Source: Micromonospora echinospora (GTDB lineage Bacteria; Actinomycetota; Actinomycetes; Mycobacteriales; Micromonosporaceae). From it: a stretch of DNA of 64,000 bases. This document shows, piece by piece, positions 4,110 through 16,493 of this stretch (the first letter of the stretch is position 1; every line of letters starts with the position of its first letter). The position numbers and the translations under genes are program-made. A model generated the notes under the pieces. That model made no database searches. It saw only the letters and a list, made by a program, of their open reading frames with translations, and had not been told where the DNA came from. The stretch is from contig NZ_JACHJC010000001.1 in NCBI RefSeq assembly GCF_014203425.1, positions 1,674,001-1,738,000 on the forward strand, read 5' to 3'.

Positions 4110-4204
4110 CTGCCCACGCGCTTTGCCGTACGGGGGCAGATGGGCAACCGCTGAACCCTGCGCGAGAACGAGTTCATCGCATGGTTCACGGGGGAGCAAC
4201 ACAA

Positions 4205-7200
4205 ATGACGATGGCGTATGCCCGCATCGCGCAGGGCGCCACTCTGGCGATCCTGGCGACGTTACTCTCAGTCGTTACCTCACCACCTACCGCCGCTCAT
4301 GCTGCGGATTGTCCGTCCGGGGTGGCCGCCGAGAGCGAGCCGGCTGCCGAGACCGAGGCGGCGGCACAGCGCCTCGCGGAGCTCTGTGACAAGCCCGTCG
4401 AGGTCCTCGCCGAAGCCGATGAGACCACCAAGGTCGTCGCCCTGCCCAGCGGTGACTTCTCTATGGAGACCTACCTCGAGCCGCAGCGCGTCGAGCGGAA
4501 CGACCGCTGGATCGCGCTGGACACGAACCTCGAGCGCGGCGCGGACGGCCGGTTCCGGCCCAGGGCCGCGGCCGACGTGTCGTTCTCGGCCGGAGGCACC
4601 GGCCCGCTGGCGACCTACCGCGAGGGCGGCGCCGACTTCACGCTGACCTGGCCCGCGCCGCTGCCAGCCGGCGTCGTGCGCGAGGACTCGGTCACGTACC
4701 CGGAGGTCCACCCGGGCGTGGACCTGGTGGTGCGTGCCGTTCCCGGCGGCTTCTCGCACGTGCTCGTGGTGAAGAACGCCGAGGCTGCCGCGAACCCCGA
4801 GGTGCGCGAGACGGCCTACGTCATCGGCGGCTCGGCGACCGTGACCGAGACCAACGACGAGATCGTCATCAAGGGCCCGGCCGGTGTGATCGCCGGCGCT
4901 CCCAAGGCGATGGCCTGGGACTCGACCCGGCAGGTCCGTGACCCGCAGACCGCCGCGCTGCGCCGGGAGGATCCCGAGGGCCTCGCCCCACCGCGGGTGG
5001 CCGAGCCGTCCACCGCCGAGGCGCCGAGCGAGTTCGCCCGCCGGTCCGACCTGGACGTACGGGTTACCGGCAAGAGGCTGACGGTGAGCGTCGACGAGGA
5101 TCTGCTGTCCGCGCAGTCGGCGTTCCCCGTCTACATCGACCCGACCTATTCGAAGTACTACGCGAAGTGGATCCCGGTCAACGACTCCCGGCCGGACACC
5201 AAGTGGGTCTCCGGCGACGCCTGGCCGCGTGAGGTCATCCGGATCGGGTCCAACTACGACAACTACGGCGACGTGTGGCGCGCGCACATGCAGTTCGACG
5301 TCAGCGCGCTCAGGGGCAAGAGGGTCATCAATACGCCCAGCGTCGACGCCTACCTGACGCACAGCGCCTGGTGCGCCGGTGAGTCGTTGGCGCTCTGGCA
5401 GACCAACGCCATCGACGGCAACACCCCGACCTGGAACGGCATGAAGGGCAAGTGGCTGCACGGCAAGGCGATCCACACCAAGACGGTCAAGGTGAACAGC
5501 GGCTGCAGCGGCCAGAAGCCGGCCTGGGTCAAGTTCAACGCGGGCGGTGTGAAGACCCACGTGCAGCGGCATGCCGACGAGAACTACAGCACCATCACGT
5601 TCGGCCTGCGGGTGCCCACCGAGAGCGGCGGCCACTGGGTCAAGGCCGAGCGCGGCAAGATCAAGCTGATCGTCGAGTACCAGTCGAAGCCGACCTCGCC
5701 GGTGCCGGTGCGCACCTCGCCGGGCGGTAACTGCGCCGCGTCGCCCGGTCCTTGGATCAACGACAGCACCCCGGCCCTGTACGCCACGGCAACCGACGCC
5801 GACAACTCGGTGCGGCTCGTCTTCGACGTGAACGGCCCGACGGCGCCGGCCGACTACACCTCCGCCGCGGTGGCCTCGGGCAAGGAAGCGACCTGGACCA
5901 CCCCGGTGCTCGCGGACGGCAGCTACAACTGGAGGGTCTACGCCACCGACGGCACGGACAAGACCGGCTGGAGCAAGACCTGCTACTTCCGGCAGGATCA
6001 CACGCCGCCCACCCTGCCGGTGATCGCCCGCAAGGCCGGCACCCCGACGCCCGAGCTGGGCAAGCCGGTGACCCTCACCTTCTCGTCGACCGACGCGCTC
6101 TCCGGCGTCGAGCGCTTCGACTACGGCATCGGCGTCGACGTGAAGTCGTCGAACGTCACGGCGTCGGCCGGCAAGGCGGAGGTCACCTTCACCGCGGACA
6201 GCGGCCAGACACAGATCTACGTGTGGGCCCGGGACAACGCCCTCAACTCCTCGTCGCGGGCGATCTACAACATCTTCACCGGGCGGGTCACGCCGGTCGA
6301 GCCGATGGCCGTCTGGCGGATGACCAGCAACCTGCGTGACGACTCCGGCACCATCGACGACGAGGGCAACACCAGTGAGGCGCCCACCGCGAAGGACCTG
6401 CGGTGGACTGTCTCCGGCACGCCGACGTACTCGACGGACCGGCTGAACCGCGGCAGCACCGCGCTCAACCTGACCGGCACGGGCTGCGCCACCACCATTC
6501 CGGTGGTGCGCAGTGACGCGGCGTTCACCGCCACGGCCTGGGTCAAGCTGACCAGCAAGGCGGCCGGGTCGAACCGCACCGTGCTGGCCGTCGCCGGCAC
6601 CAACGCGCCGGCCTTCGCGCTCTCCTACGACCAGGCCAGCGACCGCTGGCAGACGGCGATCACCAACGCCGACTCGGCTACGGGAACCTCAACGATCGCC
6701 CGCGGCACCACCTCCCCGACGCTCAACGGCTGGCAGCATGTGGCGGCCACGGTCGACCCGGTCGGCAAGACGATGCGGCTCTATGTGGACGGCGCGGTAC
6801 AGGCGACCACCGCGATCAGCGCCCTGCCGTGGCGCGGCACCGCCCGCACCCTGGTCGGCTGCGGCGGTACCGCCGGCGTGATCAACGAGCATCTGATCGG
6901 CGCGGTGGACGACGTCGCGATGTGGAGCGGCCTGCTCAGCGACGCGCAGATCGCCGCGGCGCGCGACGAGCTGCCGGCCGGTGTCGCTGCGGCCTGGAAG
7001 CTACGCGGCACCGGTGACGACGCCAGCAACCACGGCCACACGCTGACCGTGCCCGCCCCGGCGACGCCGCCGACGCCCGAGCCGACCCCGGAGCCCGAGG
7101 TCACCGACGACCCGGCACCCGATCCGGGCCCGGGCGGTGGCCCGACCCCGCCGCCGGGCGAGGAGCCGACGCCCGAGCCGACCGAGACCGGCGACCCGAA

Positions 7201-8557
7201 CGAGCCGGACCCGACCGGTAGTCCCGAGGTGCCCGAGGAGACCGAGGAGCCGTCGCCGGATCCGTCCGAGGAACCGACGCCCGAGCCGACCCCGGCGCCG
7301 ACGGTTCCCATGGAGTGGACCGACGACGCGTACGGCCGGCCGGGCTCCGCCTGGTACGTCAGCGGTGACCGGTGCGCCACCACGCAACACAGCGTGATCC
7401 GCAGCGACGAGTCGTTCACGCTCGCCGTCTGGGCCCGCCTGGACGACCCGAGCGCGATGAACCAGACGATCATCGGCACCGACGGCAACCGGGTCAGCGG
7501 CTTGTTCCTCGGCGCCCGCACGAACGCTGCCGGCGTACCGTTCTGGGCGCTCATGATGAAGGCCTCCGACTCCGAGACCTCGACCTCGGAGTGGGCGGGC
7601 GGCAGCACCGACGCGTTCGCCGCGACGGTGGGCAAGTGGACGCACCTGACCGCCACCTACAACGCCACCACCAAGACGATGTCGCTGTTCGTGAACGGCG
7701 CGAAGGCGGCGTCCGTGGTGCGGTCGACCGGCGGGAACTGGAACGCGTCCGGTGTGCTCAGCCTCGGCTGCGCCAAGTACGCCGGCGCGCGCAACGACTT
7801 CTTCCGAGGCGCGATCACCGATGTGAAAGTGTGGCGCGGCGCGCTCACCGACGCCGCGGCGGCCGCCGTGAAGAACGCCAACCCGCCGGTCAGTGTGCAG
7901 GCCTGGTACCCGCTGGAGGGGCCGCGTGCCGAGGAGCCGACCAACCTGGAAGACCGCTCCGGCAACGCCAGGCACCTCTCGATGGCCTCCGGCGAGCCGC
8001 ACTGGGAGCAGGACCGGTTCGCCAGCCGCAACGGCGCGCTGGGCCTGGCCCTCGACGAGGGCTCGTGCGCCGAGACCAGTGCGCCGGTGATTCAGGCGAA
8101 CGAGTCGTTCTCGGTCGCGGCCTGGGTATCGCTGGACGACCTGACCGGCAACCGCACCGTGCTGTCGCAGTCGGGCAGCGTCAAGCACCGCTTCCTCATC
8201 GAGTACGCGGCCGGCGTCGGCCGGTTGCGGGTGGTGATGACCGGCGGTGACTCCGCGGACGCGCCGACCGCGGAGGTGCGCTCGCTGGCCGCCCCGGCGG
8301 CCGGCGCCTGGACGCACGTGGCGGCGGTCTTCAACGGGCTGACGAACAAGCTCACGTTCTATGTGAACGGCGATCCGCAGGGTGAGGGCATCACGCTGAC
8401 CGGCTCGCTGTGGTCCGGGTCCTCCCCGCTGCGAGTCGGTTGTCTCGCCCTGACCGGCGGGACCCGCTCCAACTACCTGGGCGGCATCGTCGACGACGTC
8501 CGCGTCTGGACCTCCACGGTCGACCCCGACCTCTTCGGCACCTTCGCCCACGCCTGA
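4205..8557 (+). CDS. Secreted multi-LamG protein with DNRLRE-like domain, partner of the RHS toxin
   Basis: 1450-residue exported protein. ATG 4205 is chosen over 4181 because GGGGAG lies 8 nt before it. A signal peptide (MTMAYARIAQ to AHAAD) is followed by a beta-rich N-terminal part, a DNRLRE-like stalk domain (about 308-495), Ig-like strands, a LamG/concanavalin domain (about 700-915), a Pro/Glu/Thr linker (about 945-1035, PEPTPEPEV type) and two more LamG domains (about 1038-1228 and 1231-1450). The LamG parts repeat the CATT/RSDESF, AVWARLDD and LFVNGAKA pattern. It probably binds glycans or supports display of the RHS protein, whose gene starts 13 bp downstream in the same operon. No catalytic motif is visible. 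Confidence 0.85.
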   Translation: MTMAYARIAQGATLAILATLLSVVTSPPTAAHAADCPSGVAAESEPAAETEAAAQRLAELCDKPVEVLAEADETTKVVALPSGDFSMETYLEPQRVERNDRWIALDTNLERGADGRFRPRAAADVSFSAGGTGPLATYREGGADFTLTWPAPLPAGVVREDSVTYPEVHPGVDLVVRAVPGGFSHVLVVKNAEAAANPEVRETAYVIGGSATVTETNDEIVIKGPAGVIAGAPKAMAWDSTRQVRDPQTAALRREDPEGLAPPRVAEPSTAEAPSEFARRSDLDVRVTGKRLTVSVDEDLLSAQSAFPVYIDPTYSKYYAKWIPVNDSRPDTKWVSGDAWPREVIRIGSNYDNYGDVWRAHMQFDVSALRGKRVINTPSVDAYLTHSAWCAGESLALWQTNAIDGNTPTWNGMKGKWLHGKAIHTKTVKVNSGCSGQKPAWVKFNAGGVKTHVQRHADENYSTITFGLRVPTESGGHWVKAERGKIKLIVEYQSKPTSPVPVRTSPGGNCAASPGPWINDSTPALYATATDADNSVRLVFDVNGPTAPADYTSAAVASGKEATWTTPVLADGSYNWRVYATDGTDKTGWSKTCYFRQDHTPPTLPVIARKAGTPTPELGKPVTLTFSSTDALSGVERFDYGIGVDVKSSNVTASAGKAEVTFTADSGQTQIYVWARDNALNSSSRAIYNIFTGRVTPVEPMAVWRMTSNLRDDSGTIDDEGNTSEAPTAKDLRWTVSGTPTYSTDRLNRGSTALNLTGTGCATTIPVVRSDAAFTATAWVKLTSKAAGSNRTVLAVAGTNAPAFALSYDQASDRWQTAITNADSATGTSTIARGTTSPTLNGWQHVAATVDPVGKTMRLYVDGAVQATTAISALPWRGTARTLVGCGGTAGVINEHLIGAVDDVAMWSGLLSDAQIAAARDELPAGVAAAWKLRGTGDDASNHGHTLTVPAPATPPTPEPTPEPEVTDDPAPDPGPGGGPTPPPGEEPTPEPTETGDPNEPDPTGSPEVPEETEEPSPDPSEEPTPEPTPAPTVPMEWTDDAYGRPGSAWYVSGDRCATTQHSVIRSDESFTLAVWARLDDPSAMNQTIIGTDGNRVSGLFLGARTNAAGVPFWALMMKASDSETSTSEWAGGSTDAFAATVGKWTHLTATYNATTKTMSLFVNGAKAASVVRSTGGNWNASGVLSLGCAKYAGARNDFFRGAITDVKVWRGALTDAAAAAVKNANPPVSVQAWYPLEGPRAEEPTNLEDRSGNARHLSMASGEPHWEQDRFASRNGALGLALDEGSCAETSAPVIQANESFSVAAWVSLDDLTGNRTVLSQSGSVKHRFLIEYAAGVGRLRVVMTGGDSADAPTAEVRSLAAPAAGAWTHVAAVFNGLTNKLTFYVNGDPQGEGITLTGSLWSGSSPLRVGCLALTGGTRSNYLGGIVDDVRVWTSTVDPDLFGTFAHA

Positions 8558-8570
8558 CCGGAGAACGTTC

Positions 8571-11500
8571 ATGACTGAGAAAAAGAAGTTCTTCTCATCA
8601 GACCGGCGCGGGTTCGCCCTGGCTGCCTCGGCTTTGATGCTGACCTCATTCCTGACCTACAACTGGGTCGCCGAGGCGCTGGACGGCGAGCGGGACAGCC
8701 AGTCCGTCGCCGCCACCAACTTCGGCACCGTCAAGGTCGACCCGGTCCCGCTGCCCGCCGACGGCGGCGCCTGGAAGGGGCCGGAGAAGGGCCGCTGGCC
8801 CGCCGCCGGCTCCACCGAGATCGTCCTGGCCGGCGCCGCCGGCCGGGCGGTCGAGGGCAAGGCCGGCTCGATCACGGTGCGGGTCAAGGCCATACCCGGC
8901 AAGAAGGCGCCGGACCGGGTGCGGGTCACGTCCCTGCCCGAGGAGCAGTCCACCAAGCTGGGGTTGAGCGGCCCGGTGCTCGCGGTCGAGGGCGACCAGC
9001 CCGGCGACGTGGAGACCGAGGTCGACATCGACAGCTTCAGCCAGATGTACGGCGGCGGCTGGGCGGGCCGGCTCAACCTGAGCAGTTTGCCGGCGTGCGC
9101 GGCGACGACCCCGCAGAAGGCGGAGTGCCAGGACGCGGTGCCGCTGAAGACGGCGAAGCAGGCGACGACGCTGGCGGCGCCGATGGCGCTGACGGCGGCG
9201 GGGCCGACCATGCTCGCCCTGTCCGCGGACACCGAGTCCGGTGAGGGCGACTACAAGGCCAGCGACCTGCAGGCGTCCGGCTCGTGGACGGCCGGCGACA
9301 GCTCCGGGGCGTTCAACTACTCGAATGCCATCAAGGTGCCTCCGGCGCCCGGCCCGGTGCCGGACGTCGCGCTGAACTACTCGTCGCAGATGGTCGACGG
9401 CCGGATGGCGGGCAACAACAACCAGGCGTCCTGGGCCGGCGACGGCTGGGACTACACCCCCGGCTACATCGAGCGCAGCTACGTCACCTGCCAGGACGAC
9501 GTGGACAAGGTCGCCGGCAAAGACCCGAACAACAAGGACAAGAAGACTCTCGACCAGTGCTGGAAGGACAAGTCGCCGAACATCACCGTCTCGCTGAGCG
9601 GAACGAACACGGCGCTGGTCAAGGACGACGCGACGGGCACCTGGCGGCCCGCCGCGGACGCCAACTGGAAGGTCCAGCTGGAGGGCTCGCCCGCCAAGAA
9701 GGGCACCGCGACCACCGAACGGTGGATCATCACGACCCCGGACGGCACCCGAAACTTCTTCGCCGCCGAGGTCGCCACGTCCAACTCGCGGTGGTCGGTG
9801 CCGGTCTTCGGCAACCACGACGGCGAGGACTGCCACGCCGACGCGTTCAAGGACTCGTCCTGTCAGCAGGTCTGGCGCTGGCTGCTGGACAAGCAGATCG
9901 ACGTCCACGGCAACATGACCCGCTACTTCTACAAGAAGGAGACCGGGCACTACGGCGCGGCCGGCGACAAGAGCAACCGCGTCTCGTTCGACCGCGGCGG
10001 CAACCTCGAGCGCATCGAGTACGGCCTGCACACGGCGTACCCGGACGTCGCGGCCACCGGCCGGATCATTTTCAGCACAGCGGACCGGTGCTTTGCGACC
10101 GAGTGCTACTCCGACGGCAAGCCGGTCACCGCGAACTGGCCGGACGTGCCGTGGGACAAGGAGTGCACCGCCGAGCCGTGCACCGACAAGCTCGCGCCGG
10201 TCTTCTACTCCATCAAGCGGCTCACCAAGATCACCACTCAGATCCGCACGAGCGCGACCGGGTTCGACCCGGTCGAGTCATGGACGCTCGACCAGGAGTT
10301 CAAGGCGCCCAAGGCGGCGCGCTCCGCGTCGCTGTGGCTCAAGTCGATCACGCACGCCGGGCACGTCGGTGGCACCGTCACCGACCCGCCGGTGGTGTTC
10401 ACCGGCGTCGAGCTGGCCAACCAGGTCAACGCGATCGCCGGCACCGAGTTCTTCTCCCGCTGGCGGATCCAGAACATCCGCACCGAGTCCGGCGCGGACA
10501 TCTTCGTCAGCTACTCGGACGCCGACTGCGACGCGAACGACCTGCCGGCCGTGGAGAACAACAGCCGGCTCTGCTATCCGGTGTACTGGACCCCGGACGG
10601 CTACTGGGACCCGACCAGGGATTGGTTCCGCAAGTACGTGGTCAAGGAGGTCACCACGTACGAGCGCACCGCCGACCAGCCGCCGGTGACCACCCGCTAC
10701 GCGTACTCGAACGAGGGCACCAATACCAATGTGCTCTGGGGCTGGGACGACGGCGAGTTCACCAAGAAGAAGCACCGCACGTACGGTCAGTGGCGCGGCT
10801 ACTCCCGGGTGACCGCCACAGTCGGCGGCACGCAGGCTCCGCTGGTCACCCGCAAGCAGTTCTTCCGTGGCCTCGACGACCAGCCGCTGCCCGGCGACAA
10901 GACCCGCAGCGTGCAGGTCATCGACTCGGCCGGCAACAGCTACACCGACCAGCCCGCGCTCGCCGGCTCTACGCTCGAGGTGGCCTCGCTCGACGGCACC
11001 GCGGTCGTCGAATCGTCGATCACGTCGTACTGGGTCAAGCAGACCGCGACCCGCACGCGAACCGGCGGATCGGACCGGGCGTACAAGATCGCCCCGTCGG
11101 TGAAGAAGGAGCGCCGGCTGCTCGCCCCCGGCACCTGGGAGCAGAGCGAGACCCGGACGACGTACGACGACGAGGGCTACGCCGAGGTCGCGTACGAACT
11201 CGGCGACACAGGCAAGACCGGCGACGAGTCGTGCACCCGTAACACGTACGTGCAGAACGACGCCCTGTGGTTGCGCGGGCTGGTGTCGCGGAGCGAGACC
11301 GTGTCCAAGGCCTGTGGCGCGACCGTGTCCCGGCCGGCCGACGTCGTCGCCGACGTCAAGACCTACTACGACGGGTCGGACACACATGGCGCGGTGCCCA
11401 GCAAGGGCAGGGCGACCCGAGTCGACACGCTCGACGAGTGGATGAACGGCGCGCCGAAGTACACGGTGACCACGCGGGCGGCCTTCGACGCGCTGGGCCG

Positions 11501-14500
11501 GCCGACCAGCAACACCGACTCGCTCGGCAAGACCAGCAAGACGTACTACACCCCGGCGGGTCCGGGCCCGGTCACCCAGACCCGGACGCGCAACCCACTT
11601 GAACACGAGGTGATCACCGACCAGAACCCGGCGTGGGCCACGCCCACCTCGATCCTGGACGCCAACAACAAGCGCACCGACCTGGAGCACGACCCGATGG
11701 GCCGGCTGGCGAAGGTCTGGCTGCCCGGCCGAGCCAGGACCGCCACGCCGAACCTGGAGTTCTCCTACCTGGTCCGCAACAACGGGCCGCTGGCGGTGAC
11801 CACCAAGCGGCTCGGCCCGAACAACAACCAGATCAGCGAGATCGGCCTGTTCGACTCGCTCTACCGGTCGGTGCAGGTCCAGGAGGACGCGCAGAAGGAC
11901 AACGACGGCAAGGACGCCCGCCTGGTCACCGGCACCGGCTACAACGACCGCGGTCAGGTCGAGTACAAGTCGGACGGCAACTACGCCCTCGGCAAGCCGG
12001 GCGCCGGACTGGTGAGCATCACACCGGGCGAGGACCGCAGCCGGACCGTGTCGACCTACGACCGGCTGGGCCGCGTCGTGGAGGAGGCGCTCTGGTCGCA
12101 CGATGTCCGCAAGTGGGGCACCACCACGGCGTACGGCGGAAACTCGCTGGGCTGGCAGGTGGCCGTCACGCCGCCGAAGGGCGGCACCGCGACCGCGACC
12201 ATCGAGAACGTCGACGGCGACGTCATCGAGGAGCGGGAGTTCCACGGGCCCAAGCCGGAGGGCGCGTTCGACAAGACGTCGTACACGTACACGCCGCGCG
12301 GCGACGTCGAGACCGTGGTGAAGGGGGCCCTCACCTGGCGGTACGAGTACGACCTGCGCGGTCGTGAGATCAAGACGGTCGACCCGGACAAGGGCACCAC
12401 GGTGCTCGAGTACAACAACGGCGACGACGTCACCAAGTCGACCGACGCCGAGGGCGACGTGGTCTCGACCACCTACGACGACCTGGGCCGGCAGAAGCAA
12501 CGCCTGTTCAACGGCGTCAAGGCGGCGGAGTGGACCTACGACACCGTCGCGAAGGGACACCTCAGCAAGTCGACCTCGATCGTCGGCGGGCACTCCTTCA
12601 CCAAGGAGATCTTCGAGTACAGCGACGCGTACCAGGTCGTCGACGAAGAGGTCATCCTCCCGGCGATGCCGGGGCTGACAGGGCTCGCCGGCACCTACGT
12701 CGCGACGTACACGTACACCGCGAACGGCCTGCCGTTGCGTTCCAGCTTGCCGAAGATCGGCCCGATGGAGAAGGAGGGTCTGACCCGCACGTACGACGAC
12801 CTCGGCAACGTGGTCAAGCTGGCGGGCACCTCCTCGCCGTCCGGCACCGCCCGCACGTACGTCGACCGGACCACCTACTCGCCGTACGGCGAGGTGCTCA
12901 ACCGCTGGCTCGGAACGCCGGTCGGGGACAAGCCGCAGGCGTACCAGAACTACGTCTACGACGACGCCACCCGGCGGCTGTCGGAGTTCCGGTTCGACCG
13001 CGACGGCAGCGTGCCGAACGTTGCCACGGTCACGTACGACTACGACGAGATCGGAAACGTCCGTTCGGTCGCCAACCGGCCCGTGGACGCGGACAAGATC
13101 CCGCGTTCGGGTGAGGAAGACGTCCAGTGCTTCACCTACGACCACCTGCGTCGCCTGACGGAGGCCTGGACACAGGTGGCCACCGAGTGCGCCGGCCCGA
13201 CCGCCGCGGGTGGCAAGGCGCCGTACTGGAAGACCTGGGCGTTCGACGAACACGGGTCGCGGACCACCACCAGCGACAAGCTCACCGGTAAGACCTCGAT
13301 CTACGGGTACGCGGCCGGTGCCCAGCCGCACGGCGTGCGCACCATTACGACCGGTGAGCAGGTCGACCACTACGACTGGGACAAGCGGGGCAACCTGAAG
13401 TACCGCAAGGTGGGCGACCGCACCGAGACGTTCCAGTGGAGTCCGCACGGCAAGCTGACCAAGATCAGCGGGCCGGAGGGCGACACCACGATGGTGTACG
13501 ACGTCGACGGCAACCGCATTGCGCGGATCGACCCGACGGGGGCGGCCACCGCCTTCCTGTTCGGCAACGAGTACACCTCGTCGCCGGCGAACACCAGCGC
13601 CACGCGGTACTACGAGCACGCCGGTGACACGATCGCGTCACGGACCGACACCACCAGCCGCAAGGGCGACATCATCTGGCTGGCGTCGGACGCCCAGGAC
13701 TCCGCGACCTGGGCGGTCAACTCGGTCACCCGGGCCGCAACGATCAAGTACAACGACCCGTACGGCAACCCGCGCGACGGATCGCCGACCCCGCAGTGGC
13801 CCTCGGGTCAGCGCGGGTTCGTGGGCGGCATCAACGATCCGACCGGACTGACCCTGCTCGGCGCCCGGTACTACGACCCGAGAACCGGCGCGTTCATCTC
13901 GGTCGACCCCGAGATCGACGAGCACGACCCGCAACGGCTTCACCCGTACGCGTACTCGAACAACAACCCGACGACGTTCTCCGACCCGGACGGCCTGTTC
14001 TGGGGTGCCATCAAGAATGGCATCCAGAAGACGGCCAGTGCGGTGGCGAACGGCGCCAAGGCGGCCACCAAGGCGGTGGTCGACAACGCCGGCACGATCG
14101 CGTCGGTGGCCGGCACCGTGGCGATGGTCGCGGCGGTGCTGCCCCCGCCCGCGCAGGTGGTCGCTGCGGCGGCCGGTGCGGTGGCGGCCGTCGCCGGAGC
14201 GATCGACACGGCCAAGTCCTGTGTGGGTGGTGACGTCGGCGGCTGTGCGTCGGGCATCGCCGGCATGGTTCCCGGCGTCCGGCAGGCCAAGAACGCCGCA
14301 CGTGGTATCGGGTCGTTGAAGAATGCCGCGAAGGGCGTCTTCTCCAAGGGCTGCAACAGCTTCCTACCCGGCACGCGGGTGCTGATGGCCGACGGCAGCA
14401 CCAAGCCGATCGAGGACGTCGACCTGGATGATCAGGTCGTCGCGCGGAACCCGGAGACCGGTGAGGACGGCATCCGCCCCGTCACGTCGCTGATCACGGG

Positions 14501-15302
14501 CACCGGTGAGAAGCAGCTCGTGAAGATCACCATCGACGCAGACGGCGACGGCGTCGAGGACGGCACCGTGACCGCCACCGACGGCCACCCGATCTGGGTG
14601 GAAGACGAGCGGAAGTGGCTGGACGCCGGCGCGCTGAAGGCGGGCATGCAGCTGCTCACGCCGGACGGCGCCCGCGTCACGGTCATCGCGGTGGTCGCCT
14701 ACGGTGCCGTCGCCACGGTGCACAACCTCGACGTCGACGACATCGACACGTACTACGTCGTCGCCGGTGGCACGCCGGTCCTGGTCCACAACGCGGAAGC
14801 CTGCTCGATCCTCGAGCACCGAGCCAAGGAGCTGCACGACCTGCGCCGGGACGGCACCGCGGCGGGCTACTTCCAGTGGAAGCTCGGCACGACGGCGATC
14901 GTTCGCAGCAAGAAGGTGCTGCCGGACGGCACGGTCACCTACGTCGACGTGGTCGCGGCCAACGGCAAGGGACTGACGGCGGCGCAGAGGGCGGCGCTGC
15001 GCGGCAACGAGGAAGAAGCGGTCAACTTCGACGACCTGCACGCCGAGATGAACGCCCTGAAGCACGCTGTGGACTCGAAGTACGAGCCGCTGCACGGCGC
15101 GGCGAGCCGCAACGTCTGCCCCTGGTGTGAGAACTCGATCCGGGATCGCGGCGGCCGACTCACCGGACGCTCGAAGTGGCGGCAGGCGGTTCCCGCGGCG
15201 GGCGGCAAGAAGAAATACCCGAAGGGGCAGCGCGGCTTCGAGATCTACCGCAACGGCTCACTGTATGGCATCAAGGTGAACGGGGGCACCCTGCTGCTCT
15301 GA
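8571..15302 (+). CDS. RHS-repeat polymorphic toxin with Hint domain and C-terminal deaminase-like toxin
   Basis: 2243 residues. An N-terminal signal/anchor (residues 11-36) is followed by a large beta region, many YD repeats (roughly 800-1750) that should form the RHS cocoon, and the core motif GARYYDPRTGAFISVDP (about 1764-1780). A hydrophobic linker precedes a Hint autoprotease, which starts at Cys1928 (CNSFLPGTRVLMADGS), has ATDGHPIWV, and ends with VHN at Asn2074. The last 169 residues carry H2157-A-E2159 (DLHAEMNAL) and C2183-P-W-C2186, the zinc signature of the cytidine-deaminase fold. The likely action is self-cleavage releasing a nucleotide or nucleic-acid deaminase into a target cell. 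The substrate (DNA, RNA or nucleotide) is unknown. Confidence 0.88.
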   Translation: MTEKKKFFSSDRRGFALAASALMLTSFLTYNWVAEALDGERDSQSVAATNFGTVKVDPVPLPADGGAWKGPEKGRWPAAGSTEIVLAGAAGRAVEGKAGSITVRVKAIPGKKAPDRVRVTSLPEEQSTKLGLSGPVLAVEGDQPGDVETEVDIDSFSQMYGGGWAGRLNLSSLPACAATTPQKAECQDAVPLKTAKQATTLAAPMALTAAGPTMLALSADTESGEGDYKASDLQASGSWTAGDSSGAFNYSNAIKVPPAPGPVPDVALNYSSQMVDGRMAGNNNQASWAGDGWDYTPGYIERSYVTCQDDVDKVAGKDPNNKDKKTLDQCWKDKSPNITVSLSGTNTALVKDDATGTWRPAADANWKVQLEGSPAKKGTATTERWIITTPDGTRNFFAAEVATSNSRWSVPVFGNHDGEDCHADAFKDSSCQQVWRWLLDKQIDVHGNMTRYFYKKETGHYGAAGDKSNRVSFDRGGNLERIEYGLHTAYPDVAATGRIIFSTADRCFATECYSDGKPVTANWPDVPWDKECTAEPCTDKLAPVFYSIKRLTKITTQIRTSATGFDPVESWTLDQEFKAPKAARSASLWLKSITHAGHVGGTVTDPPVVFTGVELANQVNAIAGTEFFSRWRIQNIRTESGADIFVSYSDADCDANDLPAVENNSRLCYPVYWTPDGYWDPTRDWFRKYVVKEVTTYERTADQPPVTTRYAYSNEGTNTNVLWGWDDGEFTKKKHRTYGQWRGYSRVTATVGGTQAPLVTRKQFFRGLDDQPLPGDKTRSVQVIDSAGNSYTDQPALAGSTLEVASLDGTAVVESSITSYWVKQTATRTRTGGSDRAYKIAPSVKKERRLLAPGTWEQSETRTTYDDEGYAEVAYELGDTGKTGDESCTRNTYVQNDALWLRGLVSRSETVSKACGATVSRPADVVADVKTYYDGSDTHGAVPSKGRATRVDTLDEWMNGAPKYTVTTRAAFDALGRPTSNTDSLGKTSKTYYTPAGPGPVTQTRTRNPLEHEVITDQNPAWATPTSILDANNKRTDLEHDPMGRLAKVWLPGRARTATPNLEFSYLVRNNGPLAVTTKRLGPNNNQISEIGLFDSLYRSVQVQEDAQKDNDGKDARLVTGTGYNDRGQVEYKSDGNYALGKPGAGLVSITPGEDRSRTVSTYDRLGRVVEEALWSHDVRKWGTTTAYGGNSLGWQVAVTPPKGGTATATIENVDGDVIEEREFHGPKPEGAFDKTSYTYTPRGDVETVVKGALTWRYEYDLRGREIKTVDPDKGTTVLEYNNGDDVTKSTDAEGDVVSTTYDDLGRQKQRLFNGVKAAEWTYDTVAKGHLSKSTSIVGGHSFTKEIFEYSDAYQVVDEEVILPAMPGLTGLAGTYVATYTYTANGLPLRSSLPKIGPMEKEGLTRTYDDLGNVVKLAGTSSPSGTARTYVDRTTYSPYGEVLNRWLGTPVGDKPQAYQNYVYDDATRRLSEFRFDRDGSVPNVATVTYDYDEIGNVRSVANRPVDADKIPRSGEEDVQCFTYDHLRRLTEAWTQVATECAGPTAAGGKAPYWKTWAFDEHGSRTTTSDKLTGKTSIYGYAAGAQPHGVRTITTGEQVDHYDWDKRGNLKYRKVGDRTETFQWSPHGKLTKISGPEGDTTMVYDVDGNRIARIDPTGAATAFLFGNEYTSSPANTSATRYYEHAGDTIASRTDTTSRKGDIIWLASDAQDSATWAVNSVTRAATIKYNDPYGNPRDGSPTPQWPSGQRGFVGGINDPTGLTLLGARYYDPRTGAFISVDPEIDEHDPQRLHPYAYSNNNPTTFSDPDGLFWGAIKNGIQKTASAVANGAKAATKAVVDNAGTIASVAGTVAMVAAVLPPPAQVVAAAAGAVAAVAGAIDTAKSCVGGDVGGCASGIAGMVPGVRQAKNAARGIGSLKNAAKGVFSKGCNSFLPGTRVLMADGSTKPIEDVDLDDQVVARNPETGEDGIRPVTSLITGTGEKQLVKITIDADGDGVEDGTVTATDGHPIWVEDERKWLDAGALKAGMQLLTPDGARVTVIAVVAYGAVATVHNLDVDDIDTYYVVAGGTPVLVHNAEACSILEHRAKELHDLRRDGTAAGYFQWKLGTTAIVRSKKVLPDGTVTYVDVVAANGKGLTAAQRAALRGNEEEAVNFDDLHAEMNALKHAVDSKYEPLHGAASRNVCPWCENSIRDRGGRLTGRSKWRQAVPAAGGKKKYPKGQRGFEIYRNGSLYGIKVNGGTLLL

Positions 15303-15306
15303 GCAC

Positions 15307-15341
15307 CGGGCTGCCCGGCGCTTGCGGCGCCGGGCAGCCCG
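15307..15341 (+). terminator. Strong terminator between toxin and immunity genes
   Basis: CGGGCTGCCCGGCGC and its exact complement GCGCCGGGCAGCCCG form a 15-bp stem with a 5-nt loop, starting 5 nt after the RHS stop codon. It would separate toxin transcription from the next gene. Confidence 0.8.
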
Positions 15342-15353
15342 ACCCATCGTCGA

Positions 15354-15359
15354 TAGAAT
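15354..15359 (+). promoter_or_regulatory. -10 box of the immunity gene, leaderless
   Basis: TAGAAT lies 6 nt before GTG 15366, the spacing of leaderless actinomycete promoters. No good -35 is seen. With the terminator just upstream it implies independent expression of the candidate immunity gene. Confidence 0.5.
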
Positions 15360-15365
15360 GCCGCC

Positions 15366-16493
15366 GTGATTCGTGAGATGCGCTTCGTCGTGTCGGTGCC
15401 GGATGAGGTCTCGGCCCATGCCGTCGCCGAGAAGCTGGCCGAGCGCGGCCACCTGCTGGTCGCGGTACGGGAGGTGCCGACCGACCCGCTGGAGGGTCGC
15501 TTCGCCGGCTGGTGGCGAGTCCACTCGCTGGCCGTGGACCCGCCCTACGAGGGTCCGCTGGAGGTCTCACCGGCCGAGAAGAAGGCCGTTGCGGCAATTG
15601 CCCGGAAGTACGGCGGGCAGGTCAACTCGGCGTGCGGCCAGTTTCCGGACAAGGCGATCGAGCGCTTCTCCCGGGAGGGCCTCGCGCACGAGCTCGACCG
15701 GGCCGAGGCCGACCGGATCCGCGCGGAGCTCGTCGGCGGGCAGACAGCCGTCGCGCCGTCCTTGCCCGCGCCTCCCGGACTCAAGTGCGGTGGTTTCCGT
15801 CGTCCTGCCGCCGATCTTCGCGCGGCCGCCGAGGTGGTGCCCTTCGAGGGCCACACCTTCGACGGTGTGGGCGACCTGATCGCAGCGATCGCGAGCGACG
15901 CGTTCCCGCAGGGCTCGGTGGTGCCCGCCACCCCGGGGGCGGTGCCGCGGCTGGCCGCGCTGGCAGGTGCCGACGGGGTGAGCGACTTCTACCGGGCGAT
16001 GACGCTCATGGTGCTGTTCCAGATGAGCACCGCGGGTCGGCGGCGGCTGGCCTACCAAGCGGACGCCCCGGAAGACGGCGGTGCCGAGACGCCCGTGGAG
16101 ACGGCGACCCGGGCCGCGGTCGCGGCGGTGCTGCCCGGTCTCGCCGTGGGCCGCAGCGAACTGGCCGAGTTCCTCCTCGCCGGGCTGTCCGCGGCCACGC
16201 GGGAGGCGGGGGTCGGAATGCCGGCCGGCCTGGAGCGGATCGCGGGGCGGTACGCGGGCACCGCCCGCATCCCGGTGGTGAACCTGATCCGGGCCGTGGC
16301 TGACGGCGCCGAAGAGCCCATGCGGACCGCCACCGCAGCGGTGGTGGCGGCCCTGCCCGAGGTGGTCGACGGCCTGCAGAGCACAAAGGCGTTGGTCGAA
16401 GGGCGGGCACTCGACACGCTCGATACCGTGCTGCAGTGGGAGCTGGACAACGCTCGCCTGTCCAAGCTGGGCACGGTCTTCGGCCCCCGCTGA
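15366..16493 (+). CDS. Candidate immunity protein with RraB-like N-terminal domain
   Basis: 375 residues, soluble, no signal peptide. Residues 1-95 (MRFVVSVPDEVSAHAVAEKL, WWRVHSLAV, AIARKYGGQVNSACGQF) resemble the RraB fold, a small ribonuclease-E-inhibitor-like domain also found in immunity proteins. The rest is an Ala-rich helical domain I do not recognise. It sits directly after the RHS-Hint-deaminase gene, where immunity genes of such toxins lie, and has its own -10 box. The start is GTG 15366; ATG 15378 is an alternative. The immunity role comes from position and the domain hint only. Confidence 0.6.
   Translation: MIREMRFVVSVPDEVSAHAVAEKLAERGHLLVAVREVPTDPLEGRFAGWWRVHSLAVDPPYEGPLEVSPAEKKAVAAIARKYGGQVNSACGQFPDKAIERFSREGLAHELDRAEADRIRAELVGGQTAVAPSLPAPPGLKCGGFRRPAADLRAAAEVVPFEGHTFDGVGDLIAAIASDAFPQGSVVPATPGAVPRLAALAGADGVSDFYRAMTLMVLFQMSTAGRRRLAYQADAPEDGGAETPVETATRAAVAAVLPGLAVGRSELAEFLLAGLSAATREAGVGMPAGLERIAGRYAGTARIPVVNLIRAVADGAEEPMRTATAAVVAALPEVVDGLQSTKALVEGRALDTLDTVLQWELDNARLSKLGTVFGPR

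Follow-up and report, generated by a model that had tools for sequence, protein, structure and literature searches.

The window considered here is a stretch of 64,000 nucleotides (nt) of Micromonospora echinospora DNA (G000:C1:1674001-1738000, G000 being the species' own one-contig genome of 7.13 Mb). It carries a gene for an RHS polymorphic toxin with a putative zinc-dependent deaminase as its last domain, followed by a gene that probably encodes the cognate immunity protein. The RHS gene (8571..15302, forward strand, stop codon at 15300-15302) was delimited from the list of open reading frames and from profile matches, and encodes 2243 amino acids (aa). Its product is laid out as an SpvB-like stretch (residues 366-489), RHS repeats (Pfam PF05593, E 1.3e-9), an Rhs-associated core (NCBIfam TIGR03696, residues 1729-1809, E 1.5e-14, 54.2 bits against a cut-off of 32.5), a Hint autoprotease and the toxin domain. 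RHS repeats and core precede a variable C-terminal domain, the arrangement by which RHS polymorphic toxins are recognized. The N-terminus, read by eye, looks like a Sec-type signal peptide.

The Hint autoprotease (14352..14792, forward strand) extends from Cys1928, the codon of which is at 14352, to the Val-His-Asn of residues 2072-2074, which ends at 14792. An earlier, sequence-only reading of this DNA had called the autoprotease complete, and this was borne out by the PT-HINT profile (PF07591, residues 1939-2075, E 1.7e-15, 57.9 bits against a cut-off of 27.7), which was matched over positions 4-137 of 137, that is, across the whole domain and immediately ahead of the toxin. Hint domains cleave after their terminal asparagine and release the domain that follows. 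Here a cut after Asn2074 is predicted to free the toxin domain.

The toxin domain (14793..15299, forward strand) comprises 169 aa (residues 2075-2243), with a calculated isoelectric point (pI) of 9.6 and a net charge of about +9. Two motifs on the same strand, H2157-A-E2159 (15039..15047) and C2183-P-W-C2186 (15117..15128), are predicted to provide the first zinc ligand with the catalytic glutamate and the remaining zinc ligands, respectively. The coordinates and residue numbers of the sequence-only reading (Cys1928, VHN2074, HAE 2157-2159 and CPWC 2183-2186) are all correct, and the zinc signature that it had pointed out is more than a chance occurrence. When the domain was shuffled at constant composition, [HCD]xE-x15-45-CxxC arose in 837 of 200000 sequences and HAE-x20-30-CxxC in 12 of 200000. 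The ligand columns are moreover conserved in a 29-row family alignment (A5), with His in 27 rows and Asp in 2, Glu in all 29, the first Cys in all 29 and the second Cys in 28, the single remaining row having a gap. Spacing of the cysteines varies among A5 members from CxxC through CxxxC to CxxxxC. The zinc His is replaced by Asp (DAE) in L010 and L012 of the alignment and also in L063 and L064; a downstream partner gene is present at three of these four loci, and the L063 match runs across a stop codon.

An AlphaFold2 model of residues 2075-2243 (predicted local distance difference test score, pLDDT, of 85) resembles blasticidin S deaminase and cytidine deaminases most closely and DddA more weakly. 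HAE lies where one helix begins (domain positions 84-94) and CPWC where the next begins (110-118), after which no further helix is modeled; the later strands are short and confidence drops toward the end. The structure prediction that had been proposed for this part suggests a deaminase-like fold with both motifs at helix starts; the likeness to DddA was the weaker one, and Foldseek used alone found no match at E 0.001.

Copies of the toxin domain were found in Micromonospora chalcea DSM 43026 (100% identity) and M. tulbaghiae DSM 45142 (99%), where the surrounding DNA is 97% and 96% identical, respectively. Among 1155 candidate proteins of similar full length, one was near-identical. By whole-genome search, the family was detected in at least 11 of 300 genomes of the taxonomic family with the single toxin sequence (own genome included), in at least 4 of 396 genomes of the phylum and at least 10 of 298 of the order with profile A1 (own included), and in at least 10 of 160 genomes of the genus with profile A5 (own included). 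Profile A1 also retrieved 22 proteins from the protein collection. The plasmid and phage collections gave no match at E 0.01, and the own genome gave one further weak match (E 0.217). Some family matches cross stop codons. One genome, G248, holds two different family members (G248:C1:5150677 and 6640912). Of the alignments, A1 leaves out L003 and L006 (a near-identical copy and a remnant); A2 has 31 rows and leaves out P0024, in which no CxxC was seen by eye; and A5 omits P0004, P0007, P0011, P0013, P0017, P0019 and P0024, loci L030, L033 and L035-L039, and the new loci from the genus search.

The Pfam matches listed for the 31 A2 members at E 0.01 fall into nine families. Relatives match MafB19-deam (PF14437), OTT_1508_deam (PF14441) and dCMP_cyt_deam_1 (PF00383) weakly to moderately over the HAE/CxxC part; two of them, P0006 and P0009, score just above the PF00383 cut-off, and the window domain scores below it. 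The MafB19 and OTT_1508 cut-offs were reached by none of the proteins scored singly (the window domain and ten relatives). PF14437 was matched by 6 of 31 A2 members at E 0.01, with a best single score of 24.8 bits against a cut-off of 27; such matches say little, because the profile finds at least one protein in 127 of 129 genomes searched. Of its two matches in the own genome, the one with a known place is not the toxin locus. Searched by sequence against solved structures, the single toxin domain gave a best match of only E 0.56 and profile A2 one of E 0.0017 (1vq2, dCMP deaminase).

The sequence-only reading had also proposed DddA/SCP1.201, YwqJ and BURPS668_1122 as the folds to compare, and closeness to these was not supported, as none was matched by any member of the 31-row alignment at E 0.01. 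The DddA-like profile (SCP1.201, PF14428) matched 0 of 31 members and, when run on the own genome with a threshold of E 0.001, found nothing. YwqJ (PF14431) likewise matched 0 of 31, and its sole match in the own genome lies elsewhere, at G000:C1:1626310-1626717. PF14424, which we take to be the BURPS668_1122 toxin deaminase family, was outside the nine Pfam families. An XOO_2897-like profile had no match in the own genome, though 1 of 31 members matched it at E 0.0017. By HHalign, nothing firm was obtained for the toxin family against shallow alignments of MafB19/TadA (probability 7 over the motif) or XOO_2897 (probability 49 over 31 columns), and YwqJ, DddA and an unrelated DUF416-like control each gave a probability below 1; the DddA value means little, because L088, and perhaps others of the three DddA loci, read empty. 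The YwqJ match itself is a separate YwqJ-type deaminase on the reverse strand, about 47 kb before the window, with 121.9 bits, above the PF14431 cut-off.

Starting with GTG 63 nt past the toxin stop, a second gene (15366..16493, forward strand) encodes a 375-aa protein with no Pfam match at E 1. This gene is absent from the sequence-only reading. At least 12 homologs of 57-94% identity were found in the protein collection when the best 8000 candidates by shared words were scored. Wherever the surroundings of a toxin of at least 61% identity were examined (five toxins, in G000, G209, G926, G248 and G090), the gene lies next to it, a count that leaves out the 53% identical P0003; in G090, a homolog of 39% identity adjoins a toxin of 61% identity. 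Within the genus, the gene occurs in 7 of 160 genomes and has the toxin adjacent in 3. At the other four loci (L058-L061), no toxin was among the matches listed for profile A5, and in the 16-19 kb around the gene no match to RHS exceeded 300 aa or extended past residue 1850, except for a remnant in L061. Toxin 3' remnants are present at two of these four loci: L061 (Micromonospora lutea; overlapping L016 and L026) has a C-terminal remnant of the toxin followed by the 375-aa gene in two frames, and L058 has about 30 bases like the toxin 3' end. The gene is intact in the three toxin-less genomes L058-L060, with a frame break in L061. Because the gene is linked to the toxin and also occurs without it, its product is probably the immunity protein.

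Between the two genes lies a predicted RNA hairpin (15307..15341, forward strand) with a stem of 16 pairs (-39.2 kcal/mol, z -4.15). DNA similarity of the toxin-less loci to the window begins at 15327 (L058), 15318 (L059), 15329 (L060) and 15170 (L061) and in all four reaches 16510; the boundaries of L058, L059 and L060 (three of the four) fall inside the hairpin. Within its right arm, the final 12 bases are conserved across 8 of 8 aligned copies. A possible -10 element, TAGAAT (15354..15359, forward strand), stands six bases before the GTG and by our own reading may form a leaderless promoter; TAGNAT occurs at this position in 8 of 8 aligned copies. A sigma-70 promoter scan found no promoter, which counts against a leaderless one.

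The model of the 375-aa protein (pLDDT 73, with the first 130 residues mostly below 60) is predicted to combine an alpha+beta N-terminal domain, at low confidence, with an ARM/HEAT-like helical C-terminal part. Foldseek found nothing at E 0.001, and no solved structure was matched by the sequence profile at E 10. Immunity proteins of an Imm-HEAT type are known among polymorphic toxin systems in the available text of one survey (PMC3482391). RraB (PF06877) was considered for the N-terminal part and set aside: there was no profile match at E 1, carriers G000, G045 and G284 were unmatched by PF06877 at E 0.001, and HHalign to a Micromonospora RraB was negative. An RraB-type ferredoxin-like fold is no closer than others, as designed ferredoxin-like proteins score equally and all Z values are in the background range. 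Titles and abstract openings yielded no link of RraB to an immunity protein and toxin.

More distant toxins are mostly followed by a different gene, which often overlaps the toxin stop and in several cases is DUF416-like by sequence. Downstream genes were surveyed at 18 toxin loci; L065 and L024 yielded no entry, and L018 corresponds to the pair in G090. At ten loci (L062, L063, L028, L029, L032, L036, L019, L020, L023 and L025) a gene of 181-241 aa overlaps the toxin stop by 1-37 nt, at L021 and L022 the downstream gene starts 0 or +1 nt from the stop, and L034, L035 and L064 have no clear candidate. DUF416 was matched at E 0.1 by 5 of 13 partner proteins (the twelve that overlap or abut the stop, plus the one at L024), above the cut-off in L025 (L025:1706-2305, 51.9 bits against 23.7). 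The remaining partners share length and position with only faint similarity, so the DUF416-like label for all of them is one that we infer. L025:1706-2305 and the partners of L019, L020, L022-L024 and L062, some of them DUF416-like, are candidate immunity genes for the family at large; titles and abstract openings gave no link of DUF416 to toxin or immunity. In a toxin tree, the three members that have the 375-aa gene beside them form one group (95/93); the tree leaves 8 of its 15 inner branches open, long branches meet, and the downstream labels were set by eye, with DUF416 also given to genes without a profile match. By eye, the metagenomic protein P0024 opens with a stretch resembling the junction of Hint and toxin in L013-type toxins and closes like the DUF416-like partner of L025, as though a deletion had fused toxin and partner.

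Both genes have few amino-acid-changing relative to silent differences. For the toxin, the ratio of nonsynonymous to synonymous rates (dN/dS) is 0, 0.22 and 0.165 against L014, L015 and L017, respectively, on small counts of 0, 2 and 8 amino-acid-changing differences. The 375-aa gene gave 0.175, 0.189 and 0.255 against the same loci and 0.305, 0.303 and 0.265 against the intact toxin-less copies of L058, L059 and L060, for which part of the change lies on the window's own branch. The controls were the Hint part, at 0.133, 0.129 and 0.337, and the 1800 bases of RHS sequence before Hint, at 0.165, 0.227 and 0.262.

Taken together, these results make it likely that the locus encodes a polymorphic toxin and immunity pair, in which a Hint-released zinc deaminase toxin is blocked by the downstream 375-aa protein. 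What the analysis shows directly is the domain order, the conserved zinc signature, a predicted deaminase-like fold, the linkage of the 375-aa gene to the toxin, its presence without the toxin and the low proportion of amino-acid changes. The Hint and Rhs profiles, the conserved family and the predicted fold support the earlier claim that the RHS protein ends in a deaminase-like toxin freed by Hint. In the series of steps that we infer, the RHS protein would be exported from the producer cell, Hint would cut after Asn2074, and the 169-aa domain thus released would deaminate its target in a rival cell in a zinc-dependent manner, most likely turning cytosine in nucleic acid into uracil. The 375-aa protein would probably bind and block the toxin, protecting producer and kin. 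Cytosine in nucleic acid is our best guess for the substrate.

Several observations weigh against this interpretation. The window domain falls below every Pfam cut-off (best, OTT_1508_deam at E 0.066 and dCMP_cyt_deam_1 at E 0.16), and at E 1 it matched none of the NCBIfam profiles. With Foldseek alone, the toxin model had no PDB match at E 0.001 and other folds ranked first, and its best VIA Z of 8.2 is within the range reached by models without a clear match. The nearest folds are those of free-nucleoside and blasticidin enzymes, which a small-molecule substrate would fit equally. Basic charge is not family-wide, as the calculated pI of 29 trimmed members ranges from 4.4 to 10.0. For the partner, the model is only fair, and the case for an immunity function comes entirely from gene neighborhood. 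Toxin and 375-aa gene are also constrained like the rest of the RHS gene, with nothing specific to the pair, since their dN/dS values are like those of the Hint part and the RHS sequence before it.

The chemistry and the target of the domain may differ from this interpretation in two ways. The first, editing of RNA (for example, tRNA or mRNA) or deamination of adenine instead of DNA cytosine, is unlikely. The relatives' weak similarity to MafB19-deam across HAE and CxxC points toward it, as do those sequences found by the MafB19 profile (127 of 129 genomes) that were inspected, which look TadA-like by eye; profile comparison with TadA-like sequences was, however, not significant. In the available text of the reports, the toxin deaminases examined by sequencing gave C-to-T changes in DNA (PMC7901873, PMC11062931), and for SsdA, which also caused C-to-T changes in DNA, no RNA changes were detectable (PMC7901873). 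Less probable is an enzyme that deaminates a small molecule, such as a free nucleoside or nucleotide, and would harm the target by draining or fouling a pool instead of editing nucleic acid. Such an enzyme would suit the predicted structural ranking of blasticidin S and cytidine deaminases above DddA, and several relatives are acidic by calculation. Yet fold rank does not reveal substrate, the window domain is strongly basic, and the final position in an RHS-Hint protein is, in the text available of the survey, an architecture of deaminase toxins thought to act on nucleic acid (PMC3482391).

We consider it more improbable still that the 375-aa gene is an unrelated neighbor or a regulator, and prefer the immunity reading. 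The protein matches no Pfam family, divergent toxin relatives carry a different downstream gene, and 63 nt with a strong hairpin separate this gene from a toxin stop that other partners overlap or abut; its association with 5 of 5 toxins of at least 61% identity, down to a partner identity of 39%, its intact state without toxin in three genomes and the toxin 3' remnants at two of the four toxin-less copies argue otherwise. A deaminase remnant that has decayed or lost catalysis is very unlikely, for despite the DAE relatives and the stop codons inside some family matches, the window copy keeps H, E, C and C in an open frame and has a toxin dN/dS of 0-0.22 against three loci.

Upstream, a gene of the laminin-G type (4181..8557, forward strand) encodes 1458 aa with three stretches matching Laminin_G_3 (ConA-like lectin; PF13385, E 8.1e-64). 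It ends 13 nt before the RHS gene, and because the gap is so short the two genes perhaps form one operon; this large gene may have a role in export or binding. At L062, an RHS gene is 71.5% alike in DNA to window positions 8907-14792 (5972 columns). The likeness stops exactly at the final Hint base, the expected point for a swap of toxin tails, and the L062 tail beyond Hint is a divergent member of the same toxin family.

DddA, a toxin deaminase, is reportedly the source of mitochondrial DNA base editors, in work attributed to Mok et al. in 2020; therefore, each deaminase family yet to be tried may offer a new substrate or sequence context. The toxin-less copies in four genomes offer a natural test of how immunity genes persist once the toxin is gone. 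That members of one toxin family have different partners also raises the question of how two unrelated proteins can block one enzyme. A more far-reaching proposal is speculative and, in our view, doubtful: a deaminase of an untried clade whose substrate or sequence context would be new among bacterial toxins of this kind (a nucleotide, structured RNA, or double-stranded DNA read in another context), paired with an immunity protein of new build (ferredoxin-like plus ARM/HEAT-like) that would spread alone as a resistance cassette bounded at the intergenic hairpin and would have replaced the DUF416-like immunity of many other members.

Known toxin deaminases differ from this one in several respects. 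The DddA/SCP1.201 toxins (PF14428) include a double-stranded DNA cytosine deaminase, and many SCP1.201 enzymes active on single-stranded DNA are described in the accessible part of a later report (PMC10847098); their profile was matched by none of the 31 members. SsdA (DYW-like) and Pput_2613-like toxins are, in the text available, similar in being toxin domains with immunity partners (PMC7901873), and differ in that neither the DYW nor the Pput_2613 family is among the nine Pfam families of the 31 members. UmbC1 of Streptomyces coelicolor, as far as its accessible description goes, is likewise a polymorphic toxin from an actinobacterium, and its cytosine deaminase tail causes C-to-T mutations in DNA (PMC11062931). 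Its carrier is an ALF-repeat umbrella particle, unlike the RHS-Hint protein here, and the likeness is one of description.

The published sce3516-like toxin deaminases fit best, as compared by description and not with the prototype sequence. In the available text (PMC3482391), these have HxE, occasionally DxE, together with CxxC, occur in Actinobacteria and proteobacteria, are associated with RHS and HINT, and have SUKH listed as their immunity. The present family agrees in having HAE or similar in 27 of 29 rows and DAE in 2 of 29, and the window protein in having RHS and Hint. Another trait of the clade is its C-terminal beta-hairpin division, with no helix between strands 4 and 5; the model of the window domain lacks a helix after 110-118, but with short strands and declining confidence beyond it. 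The family departs from the description in that some members have CxxxC or CxxxxC spacing and in that the window's partner is a 375-aa protein without a Pfam match, not SUKH. A literature search found no experimentally tested member of this toxin deaminase family. The weapon is of a type already known and its downstream partner is undescribed, an immunity candidate that also occurs without the toxin; the window domain itself is a credible Hint-released deaminase toxin, belonging to a published, little-studied clade if the sce3516-like fit holds.
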